A DNA stretch of 64,000 nt, taken from contig NZ_RJJY01000001.1 of assembly GCF_003751085.1 (NCBI RefSeq), positions 558,001 to 622,000 on the forward strand, written 5' to 3'. Origin of the DNA: Micromonospora sp. Llam0 (lineage in GTDB: Bacteria > Actinomycetota > Actinomycetes > Mycobacteriales > Micromonosporaceae). Made by a program: the position numbers and the translations under genes. The notes beneath the pieces are model-generated. The model saw nothing but the letters and a program-made list of their open reading frames with translations, ran no database searches and was not told where the DNA came from. Shown here one piece after another: positions 1-12,782 of this stretch (position 1 is the stretch's first letter; every line of letters starts with the position of its first letter).

Positions 1-3000
1 GCGTGATCTCGATGACGGTGTCAAAGGGGGTGTCGCTGGCGGTCAGCAGCGCGAGGAGTTCGGTGAAGGGCTCGTCCTGCTCCGGATCGATTGTCGCTAT
101 GGCCAGTTGGACGGTGGTCCGGGTGGTCCTGCTGTCGGCGGCGGTCAGCATGCTGCGGAGCCGGTCAAGGGTGTCCGCCGTGGTGCCCGGCACCTCGTCT
201 GCTCGCCGCACCAGGGCGGCGCAGCGGTCAGCCAACGACAGCCGGTCGTCACACGACTCCGCGAGGAACGACAGGTCGGCGTGCCGGAGTCCGTGCGGGC
301 CGCCGTCTTTGGCCAGGATGGCTCGGGCCTCGCGGCGGCGGCGCCAGGTCTCCTTGCTGTCGCCGGCGACCGTCGCGAGCGCCGCGCCGGCCTCGGCTCT
401 GCTGTGGACGACCTGGTAGAGCAACCGGGCGGCGTCGATCGGATCGATCGGTGGTGGCACCAGGTCGTCATGCGGCGGGCACAGCGCGGCATGAAGTACT
501 TCTACAGCGGGTATGCGGTGCGCCGGCGACAGGTCGAGTTGCAGTTCCAGAACTCGGGCTCGGTCCTTCGGCGTCGCGGCGGGTTCGTCCAGAATTCGCT
601 GGATGCCGGTCAGCGCTGCGGATTCCTCCTCCGGGAAGGCCATGACGGCGGTGGTGACCGCCGCCGTTGTCGGCGGCCGGGCCGCCAGGGCGGCCCGGAC
701 CGCTGTTTCGGCACCGTCGATGCGGGCCAGTCGACGGCCGGTCTCGGGCGGGACATAGCCGCTGAGAGGATATGGCCGCGCCAGCGATCGAAGAAGTAGG
801 TCACCGAGCGCCCGCTGCACGGCCGTGTCGCGCCCCCACTGCGAGCGGAACAGAATCTCGGCTGTGCGTTGGGCGTCGTAGACGGAAGAAAGTGTGGTCC
901 ACAGCAGATCGTCTGCCAGCTGCAGTGGGGGAACGTGCCGGTCGTCCCCGTGGTGCAGGAGTACCTGGAGCGCCTGTACCCGGTACTCGATCGGCTCGTA
1001 TCGGTCGGAGAAGAACGACAGCAGCCCGGTGCGGTACCTGCCGGTTCCGTTCGTTTCGGTTTGCGCCAGCCAGGCAAGGGCGTTGACGCGTTCCTCGTTC
1101 GGGGCGTGCACGTCTGCCGCAGCCGGCTCCAACACCTGAGCGGCATCGGCCACCGCTCGGTTCTCCGCGAGGCTGATCGCGATCCAGCGACGATCTTGTA
1201 GGTCGTTGGTCCGCTCCGACAGCATGTCCCGTAACAGTGCCAGCCACTCCGCCGCCCGTTGAGGCGCGCAGTCGATGAGTAGCGGGATCACGTCGACTCG
1301 CCATGTCGGACTTATGTGCGGATTTCGCGCATATGACTCCAGGACCCCGAGGGCGGAAGCGTGCCGGCTGACCAGCTCGCTGTATGCATTGAACAGCCAC
1401 CGCCGCTGCGAGGGCGGGACGTGGACATCGAGAATAGCTTTCGTCGCTGCGGCACTGTGCAAGGGGTTGTCCATCAGGGCAAGCGCCGCATCGAGACGTG
1501 CTTGCACCCGTGTCGACGACCCGACCATCAATCCTTGGAGCAACGACTCGACAACCGGGTCGGGACGATACGCGCGTATGTAGCGCGCCGTGGCGCTCAC
1601 GGTCTCATCGGGCAGATCGACCTCAGGGCTCGCAAGAAGCCGTTTCAACTGCCGATCGGACTCGGCGGCGACTGGCAGAGAACAGTCGCTGGACAGTGCG
1701 ATGAGGCTTGTTGTCTCCTTGACGGTCCATGAGCGGCCGGCGGCGACCCGCAGGACGTCGTCCGCATCGGGCTGGAAACGAGGGTCGAGGTCGACGGCTG
1801 AAGCTCGGATGCGGGACACCTCGGCGGTGTCGAGCGTTGATTCGTCGGTCAGGGTTTCGATCGCATCCGCGATCCGATCCCGCAGGTCACGTTCGATCTC
1901 CCGCAAAAGCCAATATGGCACGAAACCTCGGGTCGACCTGCCGCTGTCATACAGCGCGCGACATATCGCTTCGACCACCTCGGGCCAGTGTTCCTCGCCT
2001 ACTCGTGCCAGGCTTACGGCAGCCTGTATGCGTATGTCAGGATCGACGTCGTCAGCGGATGACAGGTGGCGCAGGCACCGGATCCCGTCCGGGCGATACT
2101 CCGGCCCCAGTTCGGTCAACAGTCGCGCGGCCTGGATTCGTTTGCCGTCCTCGATGTTCATCTCGGACAGGAAATACGCGCAGCGACCAGCGATCTCGGC
2201 CCGGCAGGTTCGATCGACGGCGAGTATGGTCTCCGCTGTCCTGGTCAGCTCGGAGACGTTGAGGTCCGGCTTGTCGAGGGTGAAGCGAAGCTCGGCGAGG
2301 ATCAGCTGACGGGATGCGTCGTCCCACTCGGCCAGGGCCTCCGCCGCCACCCGTCGTTCGGACGGTTGCGCGGCGACATCGCCGAGGGTTTCCCGCATGA
2401 GCTGGAGCGCCCGGTCCCTCGGATCGCCTTCCCGGTCGATGAGGTGGCTCGCGACGGCGACCCGCTGCGAAATGGTGCCGCCGGCCTTCGGCAGAGCGTC
2501 CGCCAGCAGCCCCGCGAGCTCCGCCTCCTGGTCCGAGCCGATGTTCTCCAGAGCGATCACCGAGGCCAGCCGCGCGGTCAACGAACCGCCCTCGCCGGCT
2601 TCGGCTAACAGTTCTGCCTCCAGCGCCGGCCGTCGTGAACGATCCCGGTCGGCGAGCAGGGCGGCGAGGGCGGCCCACGCCGCCGAGCCAGGCTCCGCGA
2701 TTTCGACGTGCCGGGTGAGCCAGCCGACGAGGACCGGGGTGACTGGGAAGCGGCGTAGCGGGGCGACCAGTTCGACCGCCTCGGGCGGCGAAGCCCCCCA
2801 CAGTTGGTCGGGGAGCGAGTCCAGACATGCGGCGAGCTGCGGGTCGGAGGCCGCTGCGCCTTCGGCGACCAGCCGCACCGCGGTGGCCCGCTCGGCTGCC
2901 CCACCGCTGAGCAGCCAGCTCAGCAGGTCCCCGTCCTCTGGATGGAACCTGGTCCATCTGATCAGTACCGCCATCGCGCCCGGCTCGTCGCGGACCGCGA

Positions 3001-4648
3001 GGTGCAGCGCGCGGCGCCATCCCGTGTCGTCCGCGCCGAAACGGTCCGGCAGCTCGGCGGCGAACCGCCGAGCGGCGAAGTGCTCGGCGAACGTCAGGTG
3101 GATGAAGTCCGGTCCTGCGTCCCGGAAGCTGAGCAGTCCCGTGCTGAGCAGCACCTCGGATATGAGTTCCGCCATGTCCTCGGGCGGTCTGCCGCTGACC
3201 GGACCGGCCTCGCGGCGCAGCCACTCCATAGCGGTCAGGACCAGCGAGCGGCGGCTGCGCACCCGTACCACCGCGAGTTCTTCGACCAGGTCGTCCGTGC
3301 GGTCGCAGAGCGCGGCAACCAGCTCGGAGCTGTCGCTGTCACCGTCCAGCGTGGTAATCAGTGCGGTGCGGGCCGAGGTACGGCGGGCCGCGTTGTGCTG
3401 CCGGAGCCAGTGCAGGTAACGCTCGTAGAGGTCGTGGCGGTTGCGAGGCAGGCGGGAGTCAGGATCGTCCGCGTACACAGTGATCGCGATGGTCGCCATC
3501 AACGGCACCGCCGCCACTTCGTGTAGACCGGCCGATGCGACCTGAGACAGGAAGCCAGTGGCCTGATCGGCGCCCTCCGGCGACGGACCGAACCAGCGAT
3601 GGGCGAACTCGGCGAGCATCCGCCGGTCGAACGGCAGCAGCGTGTAGTGGCCGATCGCTCCAGCGCCGAGCATCGCCGTGGCGTGCCCGGCCAGCGGCCG
3701 GGTGGTGATCAGCAGACGCCACGGGCGGTCGTCGGCGGTCGTCCATCCGGACAGCACCGCCATGAAAGTCTCCCGCTCATCGCTCGGGACCTCGTCCAAG
3801 CCGTCGATCACTATCAGCCACTCGGCGCCGTCGACCGGACCAGCGAGCAGCGCCGGATCGACCGAGTCGCGGGCGGCCATGCCGAGGCCCTGTGACGCGG
3901 CCGCCGCCAGTGCCTCTGGCCACTTCTGGCCAGCGTGGGCGGCCAGCGATCTCGCCGTGACCAGCAGCGGCAGCAGCGGCTTCGCCGACAACCGACGCCC
4001 GTGCTCGTCGGCGTGCAGCCAGGCCCTGGCCAGCTGACGACAGATCTGCGCCGCCGTTGTCGACTTGCCGGTGCCGGGACCGCCCTCGATCAGCAGATGG
4101 CGGTGCTGGTCGAAGACCTTCTCCAGCGGACGGCGCACCGGTATCACCCGAGGGCGCTCGTCGAACGGAAGGAACAGCCGCTCGTCGGCGAAACGGCTCA
4201 GCCGGCGCCGCCGTTCGTCGGCGCGGCTCTCAGCGGACTGTGGCTGCTCCACCCGCTGCTGAACGTAGACGGTGGACACCTCGTTCCGCCGGTTGCGCAA
4301 CAGCCGGCTCGGTGACCGGTCGGCGGCGGCCTCGATGTCCTGGAGCAGCCGCCACACATCGTCGCGGAGCGGACGGCGGCCCCAGGCGGTCCGCTGCCTC
4401 CGAGTCCGCACCGGTGACGTAATCGTCCGGCCCTGACGCACAGCGATTACGGCCGCGCCGAAGGCGAGGACCCCGATGAACATCGCGACGACGCTCGCGA
4501 GCTGATCGGCGCGCTCCAGGCCGAGGCGGCTGAGGATTACGGCGAGGCCGCCCAGGAGAAGTGCGGTGAGGGCCAGGATCCCGGCGGCGACGAGTCGTCC
4601 GGACGAAGGGGTTCGCACTCGGTCATCATCCCAAGCGAACGCACCCAT
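1..4648 (-). CDS. NACHT/STAND NTPase with two N-terminal membrane helices (C-terminus beyond window)
   Basis: An uninterrupted minus-strand frame runs from an ATG at 4648 to the left edge without a stop, so more than 1549 residues are coded. Residues 19-40 and 49-70 are two hydrophobic helices, followed by a basic linker. A NACHT-type NTPase follows: Walker A GGPGTGKST at 189-197, Walker B LIVIDGLDEV at 278-287, sensor-like RLLITTRP at 311-318, then the family's VPLMATIA and FIHLTFAEHFAARRFA segments. The remaining ~1000 residues are Leu/Ala/Glu-rich, helical, HEAT-like. Bacterial NACHT proteins of this build are known as NLR-like anti-phage sensors; that role here is inferred. The membrane helices sit where an effector would be. 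The distal part uses rarer codons (ATA, TCA, GTA) than neighbouring core genes, suggesting transfer. No strong Shine-Dalgarno is visible before the ATG. Confidence 0.85.
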   Translation of the reverse strand, partial: MGAFAWDDDRVRTPSSGRLVAAGILALTALLLGGLAVILSRLGLERADQLASVVAMFIGVLAFGAAVIAVRQGRTITSPVRTRRQRTAWGRRPLRDDVWRLLQDIEAAADRSPSRLLRNRRNEVSTVYVQQRVEQPQSAESRADERRRRLSRFADERLFLPFDERPRVIPVRRPLEKVFDQHRHLLIEGGPGTGKSTTAAQICRQLARAWLHADEHGRRLSAKPLLPLLVTARSLAAHAGQKWPEALAAAASQGLGMAARDSVDPALLAGPVDGAEWLIVIDGLDEVPSDERETFMAVLSGWTTADDRPWRLLITTRPLAGHATAMLGAGAIGHYTLLPFDRRMLAEFAHRWFGPSPEGADQATGFLSQVASAGLHEVAAVPLMATIAITVYADDPDSRLPRNRHDLYERYLHWLRQHNAARRTSARTALITTLDGDSDSSELVAALCDRTDDLVEELAVVRVRSRRSLVLTAMEWLRREAGPVSGRPPEDMAELISEVLLSTGLLSFRDAGPDFIHLTFAEHFAARRFAAELPDRFGADDTGWRRALHLAVRDEPGAMAVLIRWTRFHPEDGDLLSWLLSGGAAERATAVRLVAEGAAASDPQLAACLDSLPDQLWGASPPEAVELVAPLRRFPVTPVLVGWLTRHVEIAEPGSAAWAALAALLADRDRSRRPALEAELLAEAGEGGSLTARLASVIALENIGSDQEAELAGLLADALPKAGGTISQRVAVASHLIDREGDPRDRALQLMRETLGDVAAQPSERRVAAEALAEWDDASRQLILAELRFTLDKPDLNVSELTRTAETILAVDRTCRAEIAGRCAYFLSEMNIEDGKRIQAARLLTELGPEYRPDGIRCLRHLSSADDVDPDIRIQAAVSLARVGEEHWPEVVEAICRALYDSGRSTRGFVPYWLLREIERDLRDRIADAIETLTDESTLDTAEVSRIRASAVDLDPRFQPDADDVLRVAAGRSWTVKETTSLIALSSDCSLPVAAESDRQLKRLLASPEVDLPDETVSATARYIRAYRPDPVVESLLQGLMVGSSTRVQARLDAALALMDNPLHSAAATKAILDVHVPPSQRRWLFNAYSELVSRHASALGVLESYARNPHISPTWRVDVIPLLIDCAPQRAAEWLALLRDMLSERTNDLQDRRWIAISLAENRAVADAAQVLEPAAADVHAPNEERVNALAWLAQTETNGTGRYRTGLLSFFSDRYEPIEYRVQALQVLLHHGDDRHVPPLQLADDLLWTTLSSVYDAQRTAEILFRSQWGRDTAVQRALGDLLLRSLARPYPLSGYVPPETGRRLARIDGAETAVRAALAARPPTTAAVTTAVMAFPEEESAALTGIQRILDEPAATPKDRARVLELQLDLSPAHRIPAVEVLHAALCPPHDDLVPPPIDPIDAARLLYQVVHSRAEAGAALATVAGDSKETWRRRREARAILAKDGGPHGLRHADLSFLAESCDDRLSLADRCAALVRRADEVPGTTADTLDRLRSMLTAADSRTTRTTVQLAIATIDPEQDEPFTELLALLTASDTPFDTVIEIT

Positions 4649-5002
4649 CAGTGTCCGTCACTTACAAGACCCGCAGGTTTCGCTCCTGCCCCAGCAGCCA
4701 GTCCTGCACGGCGTGTGCCGTCTTACGGTCCACATTCCGGTGATGATGTGCTCGATCTCGCCGAAGACCAACGGCGAGATCACCGTTGCTAATGCCACCC
4801 TGGAGCAGGCGATCGACAACCCGGACCACCAGTTCGAGTGGCTGTGTTGGCCGACAGCTGAACGCTGACGGTGACGACGGAACCCCGGGTCCCCCTGGGT
4901 TCCGTCGAGCCCTGTCGCGTCGGGAGGTGTGGGCTCACCCGCGACGACATCCGCACCTGGAGGCTGTCGTCAGCGTGCAATGCCCGGCCACGGCGAGACC
5001 GG
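4649..5002. other. 354-bp stretch between the NACHT gene and yoeB, no confident gene
   Basis: No gene with a convincing start and family match was found. A plus-strand frame ending at 4868 finishes in a protein-like tail (positions 4741-4868, ending WPTAER) but its upstream half reads as noise, so it may be the C-terminal scrap of a lost gene. The stretch separates two units read on the minus strand, and may hold the terminator of yefM-yoeB and the promoter of the NACHT gene; neither is clear by eye. Confidence 0.4.
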
Positions 5003-5266
5003 TCAGTCGCTGTAGTGGTACCGGGCCTTGATGATCTTTACTTCCTTCTCGTCAGCCCGGTACACCAGGCGGTGTTCGTCATCGATGCGCCGTGACCAGT
5101 AGCCGGACAGGTCGCCTTTCAGGGGTTCCGGCTTGCCGACGCCGGTGAACGGGTCACGCTGGATCTCGCCGATCAGGCGGGTGATCCGGCGGGCCTTCTT
5201 CCGATCCGAGGCGAGCCAGAAGAGCAGGTCTTCCCATGCGTCGGGATCAAAGTTGACCCCCCTCAC
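5003..5266 (-). CDS. yoeB: YoeB-family mRNA interferase toxin
   Basis: 87 residues, the usual length of Txe/YoeB toxins, which cleave mRNA in the ribosomal A site at translation start and are held inactive by YefM. The residues known to matter in E. coli YoeB are recognisable: Glu47 in [17 protein letters not shown], Arg66 in DEHRLVY, and the C-terminal His84-Tyr85 in ARYHYSD. The start is a GTG at 5266 that overlaps the yefM stop (GTGA), so toxin translation is coupled to the antitoxin. The pair sits beside a NACHT protein in an accessory stretch. No sign of inactivation is seen. Confidence 0.93.
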
Positions 5267-5538
5267 TCCTCGCCCCCAGCCATCTCCCGTAGCTCATCCA
5301 TGGTCTTGGCGATCGAGGGGCCGCCCGCTCGGTCCCGGGCGACAGCTTCCATGAGCCGCCTCGCGTTCGCGGGAGACCGAAGCAGGTACACGGTCTCTTG
5401 CCAGGCGTCGTAGTCTTCCGCCGACATGAGCACCACGTCCCCGCTGCGCGAGCTGATGCGTATCGGGTTGTGGTCGTCGTTGACCCGCTCGATGAGGGGG
5501 AACAGGCGCTGCCGCGCCTCGCTTGCGCTGATGGACAT
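5263..5538 (-). CDS. yefM: YefM-family antitoxin
   Basis: 91 residues of the Phd/YefM fold: N-terminal [22 protein letters not shown] is the DNA-binding and dimerisation half, and the acidic C-terminal half (ending REMAGGEE) is the part that would wrap the toxin. The ATG at 5538 is preceded by AAGGAG seven bases away (5546-5551). It is first in a two-gene operon with yoeB, overlapping by four bases. YefM proteins repress their own promoter, more strongly with YoeB bound, and the upstream region carries suitable repeated GTAC-centred sites (5558-5602). Confidence 0.92.
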
Positions 5539-6532: not shown

Positions 6533-7045
6533 TCAGCTGCGGTGCGGTGCGGTGCGGCGACGCGGCTGCGGCACCGGGACGCCGGCGGCCTCCAGCGCCT
6601 CCCGCTGACCGCGCGCGGCGAGCCGGTCGGCGCGCTCGTTCTCCACATGGCCGGCGTGGCCCTTCACCCAGTGCCAGACGACCTCGTGGTGGCGGGCGAC
6701 GGCCGCGTCGAGCTCCCGCCACAAATCCTCGTTCTTGACCGGCTCGCCCGCCTTGGTACGCCAACCGTTGCGTTTCCAGTTCGCCATCCACGACATCACG
6801 CCGTTGCGGACGTACGTGCTGTCGGTGTAGAGGTCGACGGTGGACGTCCGGGTCAGCGCGGCCAGCGCCCGGATCGGGGCGGTGAGCTCCATCCGGTTGT
6901 TCGTGGTCGGGCTGGCCTCACCGCCGCACAGCTCCTTCTCGGCCTCGCCGTAGCGCAGCAGGGCACCCCAACCGCCCGGCCCCGGATTGCCGCTGCACGC
7001 GCCGTCGGTCCAGATCTGCACCCGTGTCGTCTTCAGCCCCGCCAC
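6533..7045 (-). CDS. rnhA: ribonuclease HI
   Basis: 170 residues. It hydrolyses the RNA strand of RNA-DNA hybrids, clearing R-loops and primers. The catalytic acids are in place: Asp14 in [16 protein letters not shown], Glu53 in NNRMEL, Asp75 in LYTDSTYV, and the last Asp in [11 protein letters not shown] near 140. [13 protein letters not shown] is the conserved His-containing loop. The C-terminal ~20 residues ([14 protein letters not shown]) are a basic tail beyond the usual domain. It is the first clearly housekeeping gene right of the accessory stretch and is separated from the IclR gene by about 30 bases. Confidence 0.95.
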
Positions 7046-12014: not shown

Positions 12015-12782
12015 TCAGGGGTTCAGCAGTTGGCGCAGCGCGGTCAGCTCCTGCGGGGTGGGTTCGTCGGTGGTGGTCAGGTCGGCGGCGACCTTCAGCG
12101 GCCAGCCGGTGGCCGCCACGGCCTGCTCGACGCCCACGCCGGGGTGCAGCTGGGTGAGGGTCAGCTCGCAGGTGGCCGGGTCCGGGCGCAGCATGCCGAG
12201 GTCGGTGATGACCAGGGTGGGACCCCGGCCACGCAGGCCGAGGCGTTGCCGGTCGCCGGGGCCTGCGCCGAAGCCGACCGAGGTGACGAAGTCGACCCGG
12301 TCGACGAACGTACGCCGGCTCTGCGGCACGATGACGATCACCTCGCCGCACGAGGCGGCGATCTCCGGGGCTCCGCCCGCGCCGGGCAGCCGTACCTTCG
12401 GGTCGGTGTAGTCGGTGCCGATCACCGTGGTGTTGATGTTGGCGTACCGGTCGATCTGCGCCGCGCCGAGGAAGCCGACGTCGATCCGGCCGGGCTGCAG
12501 CCAGTAGTTGAAGATCTCCGGCACCGAGACGACCGTGTCGGCGGTCTCGGCGAGCACCCCGTCGCCGATGGACAGCGGCAGCCGACCGGGCTTGGCGCCG
12601 ATGGTGCCGGACTCGTAGACCAGCACCAGGTTGGGGGAGTGGGTCCGTCGGGCCAGGTTGGCGGCGGTGCTGGGCCGGCCGATGCCGACGAAGCAGCGGG
12701 CGTCGTCGCGCAGCGCCCGGGCGGCGGCGACGGTCATCATCTCGTCGCGGGTGAACCCCTCGACAGACTGCGGCTCGTTCAC
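12015..12782 (-). CDS. pcaJ: 3-oxoadipate CoA-transferase, beta subunit (GctB/CatJ-type)
   Basis: 255 residues. With PcaI it transfers CoA from succinyl-CoA to beta-ketoadipate. The start is the GTG at 12782, overlapping the pcaI stop. VNEPQSVEGFTRDEMMTVAAARAL followed by FVGIGRPSTAANLARRTHSPNLVLVYESGTIG is the pattern of the glutaconate CoA-transferase-like branch. Glu57 in the YESG motif is the likely catalytic glutamate. This branch includes CatIJ-type enzymes rather than the shorter PcaIJ of P. putida, so the symbol reflects the pathway role rather than closest ancestry. Confidence 0.9.
   Translation of the reverse strand: MNEPQSVEGFTRDEMMTVAAARALRDDARCFVGIGRPSTAANLARRTHSPNLVLVYESGTIGAKPGRLPLSIGDGVLAETADTVVSVPEIFNYWLQPGRIDVGFLGAAQIDRYANINTTVIGTDYTDPKVRLPGAGGAPEIAASCGEVIVIVPQSRRTFVDRVDFVTSVGFGAGPGDRQRLGLRGRGPTLVITDLGMLRPDPATCELTLTQLHPGVGVEQAVAATGWPLKVAADLTTTDEPTPQELTALRQLLNP

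Follow-up and report, generated by a model that had tools for sequence, protein, structure and literature searches.

A NACHT ATPase with an N-terminal two-helix hairpin in Micromonospora sp. Llam0, and the recurrence of the hairpin beside other actinobacterial ATPases

What does a bacterial NACHT protein do if two membrane helices occupy the place where its effector would be expected? The question is raised by a very large gene on the minus strand at the left edge of a 64,000-nucleotide stretch of the Micromonospora sp. Llam0 genome (contig NZ_RJJY01000001.1, positions 558,001 to 622,000; the whole stretch is hereafter the window). In the signal transduction ATPases with numerous domains (STAND) and the nucleotide-binding leucine-rich repeat (LRR) receptors (NLRs), the paradigm drawn for bacterial cases in the available parts of two sources is that repeats sense, the NACHT module switches and assembles, and the N-terminus acts (PMC12169576, PMC10907252). 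Here, we describe the hairpin, the ATPase and the repeats of this protein, we trace the hairpin in other genomes, and we propose, with a probability of roughly 0.57, that the gene encodes an NLR-like protein of biological conflict which, on assembling, would cluster its hairpins within the membrane.

Hairpin, ATPase and repeats of the NACHT protein

Window positions of frames refer to the minus strand, and residues are numbered from the ATG at 4648 unless stated otherwise. Nothing interrupts frame 2..4648 between the window edge and this ATG, a span of 1549 codons; the gene, cut by the edge, was completed in the parent genome (G000), where it extends left of the window, ends at G000:C1:557060 and has 1862 codons, so that the window carries its N-terminal 1549. 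An alternative start, the GTG at 4618, gives 1852 residues, which is the length of the orthologue P0001 from Solwaraspora sp. WMMD792. The protein is ordered as a two-helix hairpin, a linker, a NACHT ATPase and approximately 1300 residues of HEAT-like repeats. The elements named by the original prediction (Walker A, Walker B, a NACHT segment, two N-terminal helices and long helical repeats) were all recovered by Pfam, alignment A2, hydropathy and a profile search of PDB.

The two hydrophobic stretches of the hairpin, residues 20-38 (4535..4591) and residues 52-70 (4439..4495, with a basic stretch behind), have mean Kyte-Doolittle values of 2.49 and 2.56, respectively, and correspond to helices 16-41 and 44-72 in the structure model, where the block-mean predicted local distance difference test score (pLDDT) is only 49-74. 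Between them lies the loop motif LGLERADQLASV (residues 42-53, 4490..4525), found in the form AD[QKL][LWK]xS[VI] in 21 of the 22 rows of alignment A1; the exception, P0005, was deposited without its N-terminus, and in the A. couchii DNA the hairpin is encoded ahead of the deposited start. Both helices exceed a hydropathy of 1.6 in 19 of the 22 rows. The net charge over the 22 residues after helix 2 is +8, and this stretch is more positive than the loop in 21/21 rows, as expected if both ends of the hairpin are cytosolic. The hairpin very probably sits in the membrane, and the earlier claim of a two-helix membrane N-terminus in the usual effector slot is borne out by hydropathy, the model and the conservation of the loop.

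A named family for the hairpin, SLATT or another membrane domain, was rejected, since four hairpin stretches tested in Pfam gave no match over the cut-off. For the query N-terminus itself a holin-like model matched at E 0.11, and the SLATT profile had no match to residues 1-170 at E ≤ 5; SLATT_1 appeared at E 0.48 for the short protein in L083 only, and the hairpin stretch of L044 gave SfLAP (0.0027) and DUF202 (0.0098), both under the cut-off. SLATT is, like the hairpin, a two-helix domain, and in the accessible part of PMC7159879 it is called a pore-forming effector in conflict systems.

Behind the linker (residues 71-170, 4139..4438, containing STVYVQQ), the ATPase domain spans residues 181-353 (3590..4108) and is matched over cut-off by Pfam NACHT (31.0 bits against 26.7, residues 184-353) and by NPHP3_N (31.8 bits against 24.8, residues 181-317). 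Ten residues do not vary across the 36 rows of alignment A2: G192, G194 and K195 of the Walker A motif GGPGTGKS (residues 189-196, 4061..4084), D282, G283, D285 and E286 of the Walker B motif DGLDE (residues 282-286, 3791..3805), and F515, H517 and E522 of FIHLTFAEH (residues 515-523, 3080..3106), which belongs to the winged-helix part by position. A Walker B of the DGxDE type is a mark of the NACHT clade, and the predicted fold of the module has its best matches in NLRP3, NLRC4 and NOD2, at 14-17% identity. The profile, the Walker motifs and the NLR-like predicted fold place the protein in the NACHT class; a housekeeping ATPase family outside NACHT, which would have undone the original prediction, was not what the profile search returned. 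Two more NACHT matches over cut-off lie in the same genome, at G000:C1:3864193 and G000:C2:1968742.

The repeats begin at about residue 560 and run to about 1862 (residues 560-1549 within the window, 2..2971). A family profile searched against PDB matched alphaRep HEAT-like designs (1.3e-5) and Rpn2/PSMD1 (0.002); Pfam HEAT itself is detected at E ≤ 0.01 in only one of 22 relatives. Animal NLRs have LRRs and a death-fold domain, and relative to NLRP3, NLRC4 and NOD2 the window protein has HEAT-like repeats in place of the former and the membrane hairpin in place of the latter. We are highly confident that the protein works as a STAND switch, which in our reading is membrane-tethered and NLR-like.

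The order hairpin, NACHT and repeats is the tripartite layout of antiphage bNACHT proteins, which have a central NACHT, an N-terminal effector slot and a C-terminal sensor (PMC12169576, in its available part); by this likeness the hairpin would be the effector and the repeats the sensor. The bNACHT examples in that part of the source, to which the comparison extends, have a DNase or no recognised effector, in contrast to the membrane hairpin here. Avs (AVAST) proteins likewise contain a STAND switch, used in phage defence (PMC12931631, available part); PADLOC returned no Avs-named model for the window protein at E ≤ 0.1, and a distant relation to Avs may still exist. Bacterial NACHT proteins with varied effectors are known already, and the window protein is a membrane-hairpin variant with a very long region of HEAT-like repeats.

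The gene was found in three (G000, G003 and G004) of the seven genus genomes compared, i.e., the window's own, G000, and G001 to G006, and the ratio of nonsynonymous to synonymous substitution rates (dN/dS) was calculated from pairs among these three carriers, with segments numbered from the 1852-residue start. It is 0.03-0.09 for the linker and 0.09-0.13 for NACHT, and this tight constraint is a clear result. The hairpin has 0.08-0.32 (few changes), residues 361-560 have 0.21-0.36, and the repeat segments reach 0.27-0.60. Amino-acid changes in the repeats exceed those in linker plus NACHT (Fisher p 2e-4, 3e-5 and 9e-4 for three non-independent pairs), and from these sequences a diversification of the repeats is possible.

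The hairpin in relatives and in other genomes

A protein search, in which only the 8000 candidates sharing most words were scored, found 35 relatives at E ≤ 0.001. The hairpin family comprises P0001 to P0022; the 13 of them with a named organism come from genera of the Micromonosporaceae. More distant relatives have other N-termini ahead of a similar linker motif. Among seven such cousins scanned with Pfam, Trypsin_2 was found in P0031 and P0033 and not in P0024 or P0029, and no helix-turn-helix (HTH) family was found in P0027 or P0028; by eye, P0024 to P0026 are trypsin-like and P0027, P0028, P0036 and P0037 are HTH-like, with a YVxQ-like linker motif in both types. The trypsin-type STAND proteins with HEAT repeats, several of them from Streptomyces, resemble the window protein in the ATPase region and the linker motif and differ in having a peptidase-type domain where it has the hairpin. 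On a 39-row tree, all 23 rows of the hairpin family group together as a single clade (99/96); among them are P0004 and P0005, both of which start after the hairpin as deposited. With trypsin and HTH-like labels assigned partly by eye, trypsin needs two changes on this tree, and all labels together need four, against a mean of 14.7 for shuffled labels. The slot of the hairpin is occupied by other domains in the cousins.

A scan of genome contigs returned no relative if a single protein was the query and at least 19 loci if the alignment was. Two further STAND proteins, in L058 (Lentzea) and L093 (G061), start with the related stretches DKIASIV and DQVASIV, respectively, followed by one helix and then by more hydrophobic stretches; these N-termini are perhaps a longer version of the hairpin.

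The hairpin alone, as a profile of 72 positions (A4), has matches in 54 of the 121 genomes of the family (E ≤ 0.001) and in 18 of the 296 genomes of the class (E ≤ 1e-4); the class search scored 20 candidates per genome, against 48 in the family search. The consensus of its loop is GLxxADxLASV. Every one of the seven genus genomes has at least one match, and G000 has two besides the NACHT gene.

Some of these hairpins are fused to an ATPase. Among the 26 long frames, which are all family-search matches of at least 500 amino acids with three orthologues left out, a P-loop stands behind the hairpin in 20, compared with 24 of 59 background frames (loose pattern; Fisher p 0.002); taken alone this enrichment is modest, the background being high. 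The six long frames lacking a P-loop have at most about 200 residues left behind the hairpin. The kind of ATPase is the stronger evidence. Pfam was run on 19 of the 20 P-loop frames and gave NACHT, NB-ARC or AAA at E ≤ 0.001 in 16, six of which (L086, L087, L090, L097, L101 and L107) are under the curated cut-off; L096 and L098 gave TPR only, and L091 has WD40, other propeller and pentapeptide models among the matches listed.

In other loci the hairpin is a short gene of its own. In 16 of 21 cases a start codon no more than 300 bp behind this gene can open a P-loop ATPase frame, and in nine of the 16 the first start codon of the ATPase frame overlaps the hairpin stop by 4 bp. Background genes of 100-300 amino acids are so followed in 6 of 198 cases (Fisher p 1.7e-15), a comparison imperfectly matched in that the background consists of called genes and the hairpin set comes from an open-frame scan. 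The 21 are the short matches returned as loci rather than all short matches; they exclude L066, which is the broken P. flavus copy, and L119, which is a long frame. The loop motif is kept, by a loose pattern, in 19 of the 21 short hairpins. Six partner ATPases were scanned with Pfam: NB-ARC is over the cut-off in L075 and L114, and the other four have weak nSTAND or AAA matches. Seven hairpin-linked proteins were scanned with PADLOC: two had matches, to repeat or general ATPase models only, and five had none. A short hairpin protein and two partner ATPases were without a PADLOC match.

In L067, L068, L073 and L076, the short hairpin protein has a tail stretch like GxVxQVxxVxGDV, and the N-terminus of the ATPase that follows has, by eye, the similar stretch VVFGDVIQIxGVxGNVTI. 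The two proteins may touch each other through this common stretch.

We suggest, at a little short of even odds, that the hairpin is a general output device of actinobacterial STAND ATPases, present in cis as fusions (with NACHT, NB-ARC or another P-loop domain and with HEAT, TPR or WD40 repeats) and in trans as short genes immediately ahead of an ATPase gene, and that, within a whole class of NLR-like conflict systems acting on the membrane, the window protein represents the HEAT-NACHT version. No description of the module was found in the literature searched, which included few subscription papers and is not proof that it is unpublished. Its recurrence in cis and in trans is where the specialist interest lies, and, if the suggestion holds, the hairpin is a sequence handle for finding more candidate systems in actinomycetes.

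Proposed function and alternatives

Under the STAND/NLR paradigm, the repeats would at rest keep the NACHT module ADP-bound at the inner membrane face, and an invader cue bound by the repeats would release it. ATP-bound subunits would then assemble and bring their hairpins side by side; the gathered hairpins would open or disturb the cytoplasmic membrane, and the damage would halt growth and hence the invader, i.e., an abortive response. Assembly would gather the hairpins in the membrane because the hairpin is the only recognised element before the linker. A conflict or defence role is in our view reasonably probable, and it is put forward only tentatively, as something we would sooner doubt than assert, that the hairpin itself is the pore or toxic part. 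In the available part of PMC12642688, a helix pair in each subunit of Cap1, a type III CRISPR protein, opens a membrane pore on cytosolic switching, which indicates that a membrane output can work in phage defence; Cap1 is switched by cyclic tetra-adenylate, is a tetramer and is not a STAND protein, and the likeness is an analogy only. If the proposal is true, bacterial NLR-like proteins gain a membrane-acting arm with an outcome comparable to that of animal inflammasomes.

Several results weigh against this proposal. There are no phage-borne relatives in 50,697 phage records, and the plasmid relatives (13 records) are all partial, below 60% identity and cover at most 24% of the query. The pLDDT of the hairpin model is just moderate, and in P0020 and P0021 the first helix alone exceeds a hydropathy of 1.6 (P0005 is also among the non-passing rows). 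PADLOC gave the NACHT protein weak matches in the ATPase region only, the best to mad8 (4.3e-5, residues 173-209), and NCBIfam gave it no family over cut-off. No defence gene recurs as a neighbour across the nine other loci compared. The fast repeats are no strong sign because neighbouring genes reach similar dN/dS values: the medians are 0.22 (25 genes) and 0.20 (20 genes), the maxima 0.64 and 0.78, and 7 of 25 and 7 of 20 genes are at 0.27 or more. Relaxed constraint accounts for the repeats as well as an arms race does. The synonymous divergence (dS) of the NACHT gene, 0.137 and 0.149, is inside the range of its neighbours (0.03-0.20), and the gene therefore appears to have passed down together with its region from the common ancestor of the three carriers.

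That inheritance, the repeat rates within the neighbours' range and the lack of a clear match in the defence databases would all fit a STAND protein that signals for a regulatory purpose outside defence (in stress, development or surface sensing), in which the hairpin is a plain membrane anchor; STAND proteins do include regulators. We regard this as unlikely, given that the gene is present in three of seven genus genomes at a variable spot, that cousins have a peptidase domain in the hairpin slot, and that the broken copy in Phytohabitans flavus points to a gene that can be dispensed with. A second alternative is that the hairpin is a membrane adaptor rather than the toxic part. In the manner of effector-associated domains, it would then bind its counterpart hairpin on another, small membrane protein, and that protein would bring the action or signal. 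Short proteins with this hairpin exist, 16 of 21 of their genes directly precede a P-loop ATPase gene, all seven genus genomes have a match and G000 has two extra ones, and homotypic adaptors are described in related conflict systems (PMC7159879 and PMC8195603, in their available parts). The two extra short hairpin genes of G000 (L082 and L083), which come in addition to the 21, however, have by eye no ATPase gene directly downstream, so no partner is indicated, and we consider an adaptor rather unlikely, a candidate all the same.

The toxin-antitoxin pair beside the gene offers one more effector. The yoeB toxin gene (5003..5266, minus strand; NCBIfam TIGR02116, 2.6e-36) and the yefM antitoxin gene (5263..5538, minus strand; phd_fam, 8.2e-19) are what the original prediction took them for; their membership of the system did not hold up. 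The pair lies on the same strand as the NACHT gene, 354 bp away in the window, and adjoins it also in G004 at somewhat less than 1 kb, yet G003 has the NACHT gene without an adjoining pair, G002 has a 93%-identical pair without the NACHT gene, and neither YefM nor YoeB was matched by blastp among the called genes of the nine other loci. A linked unit was rejected on the evidence of G003 and G002, and a single abortive-infection unit with the toxin as effector is very improbable. The NLR-like conflict protein with gathered hairpins is the reading that we retain.

Genomic location and neighbours

Gene calls at the compared loci come from a simple composition-based script, and gene names were given by eye. 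The spot lies between a serine hydrolase group of the beta-lactamase-like type and an IclR-type regulator, and both flanks are matched in all seven genus genomes. Between the flanks, G005 has approximately 230 bp, G001 has approximately 1.3 kb with one small frame, G002 has one sulfotransferase-like and two glycosyltransferase-like genes, and G006 has ABC-transporter-like and two-component-like genes and an XRE/DUF397-like pair; in G000, G003 and G004 such a pair is followed by the NACHT gene. The contents of the spot thus differ across the seven genomes, and the NACHT gene is therefore accessory, as was proposed from the window; conservation in all relatives, the opposite expectation, was not found. 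By eye, no integrase or transposase was recognised among the called genes at the spot.

In G004, the NACHT gene and the 1 kb upstream of it lie between the two copies of a 24-bp direct repeat (L014:5836-5859 and 12423-12446), whose sequence is that of the final 24 bases of yoeB. This sequence is single in the G000 stretch (L007) and was not found in the G003 stretch, and we draw no insertion mechanism from it for this reason.

In nine loci of other genera, blastp of the called genes matched no gene adjoining the NACHT gene to an adjoining gene elsewhere, and scattered cross-matches were to common families (ABC, MFS and regulators). In A. auranticolor (L044), a TIR-like gene and a MoxR-like one stand nearby, as judged by eye. 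In P. rishiriensis, an HTH-like and serine hydrolase pair (L056:19949-21471), 4.4 kb behind the NACHT gene and in the same direction, shares 36% and 30% identity with the pair that follows the NACHT gene in G000 and might be a trace of an old common neighbourhood. In L049, the gene that follows the NACHT gene shares 49% identity with one located 13 kb away in G004. Phytohabitans flavus has a broken copy, with its N-terminal part out of frame and an early end of the open frame, approximately 3 kb from a transposase-like gene (by eye).

Corresponding to window positions 4649-5002, G003 and G004 have by eye a fragment resembling PIN, together with a membrane frame of low complexity in which SVGSIGS-type repeats occur, and most of this stretch before the NACHT gene is missing in the window's genome; it may be what had been read as gene scraps in an accessory island. 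At 6533-7045, a ribonuclease HI-like gene (by eye) is at the same spot in G000, G003 and G004, and its matches in G001, G002, G005 and G006 are far from the IclR-type gene.
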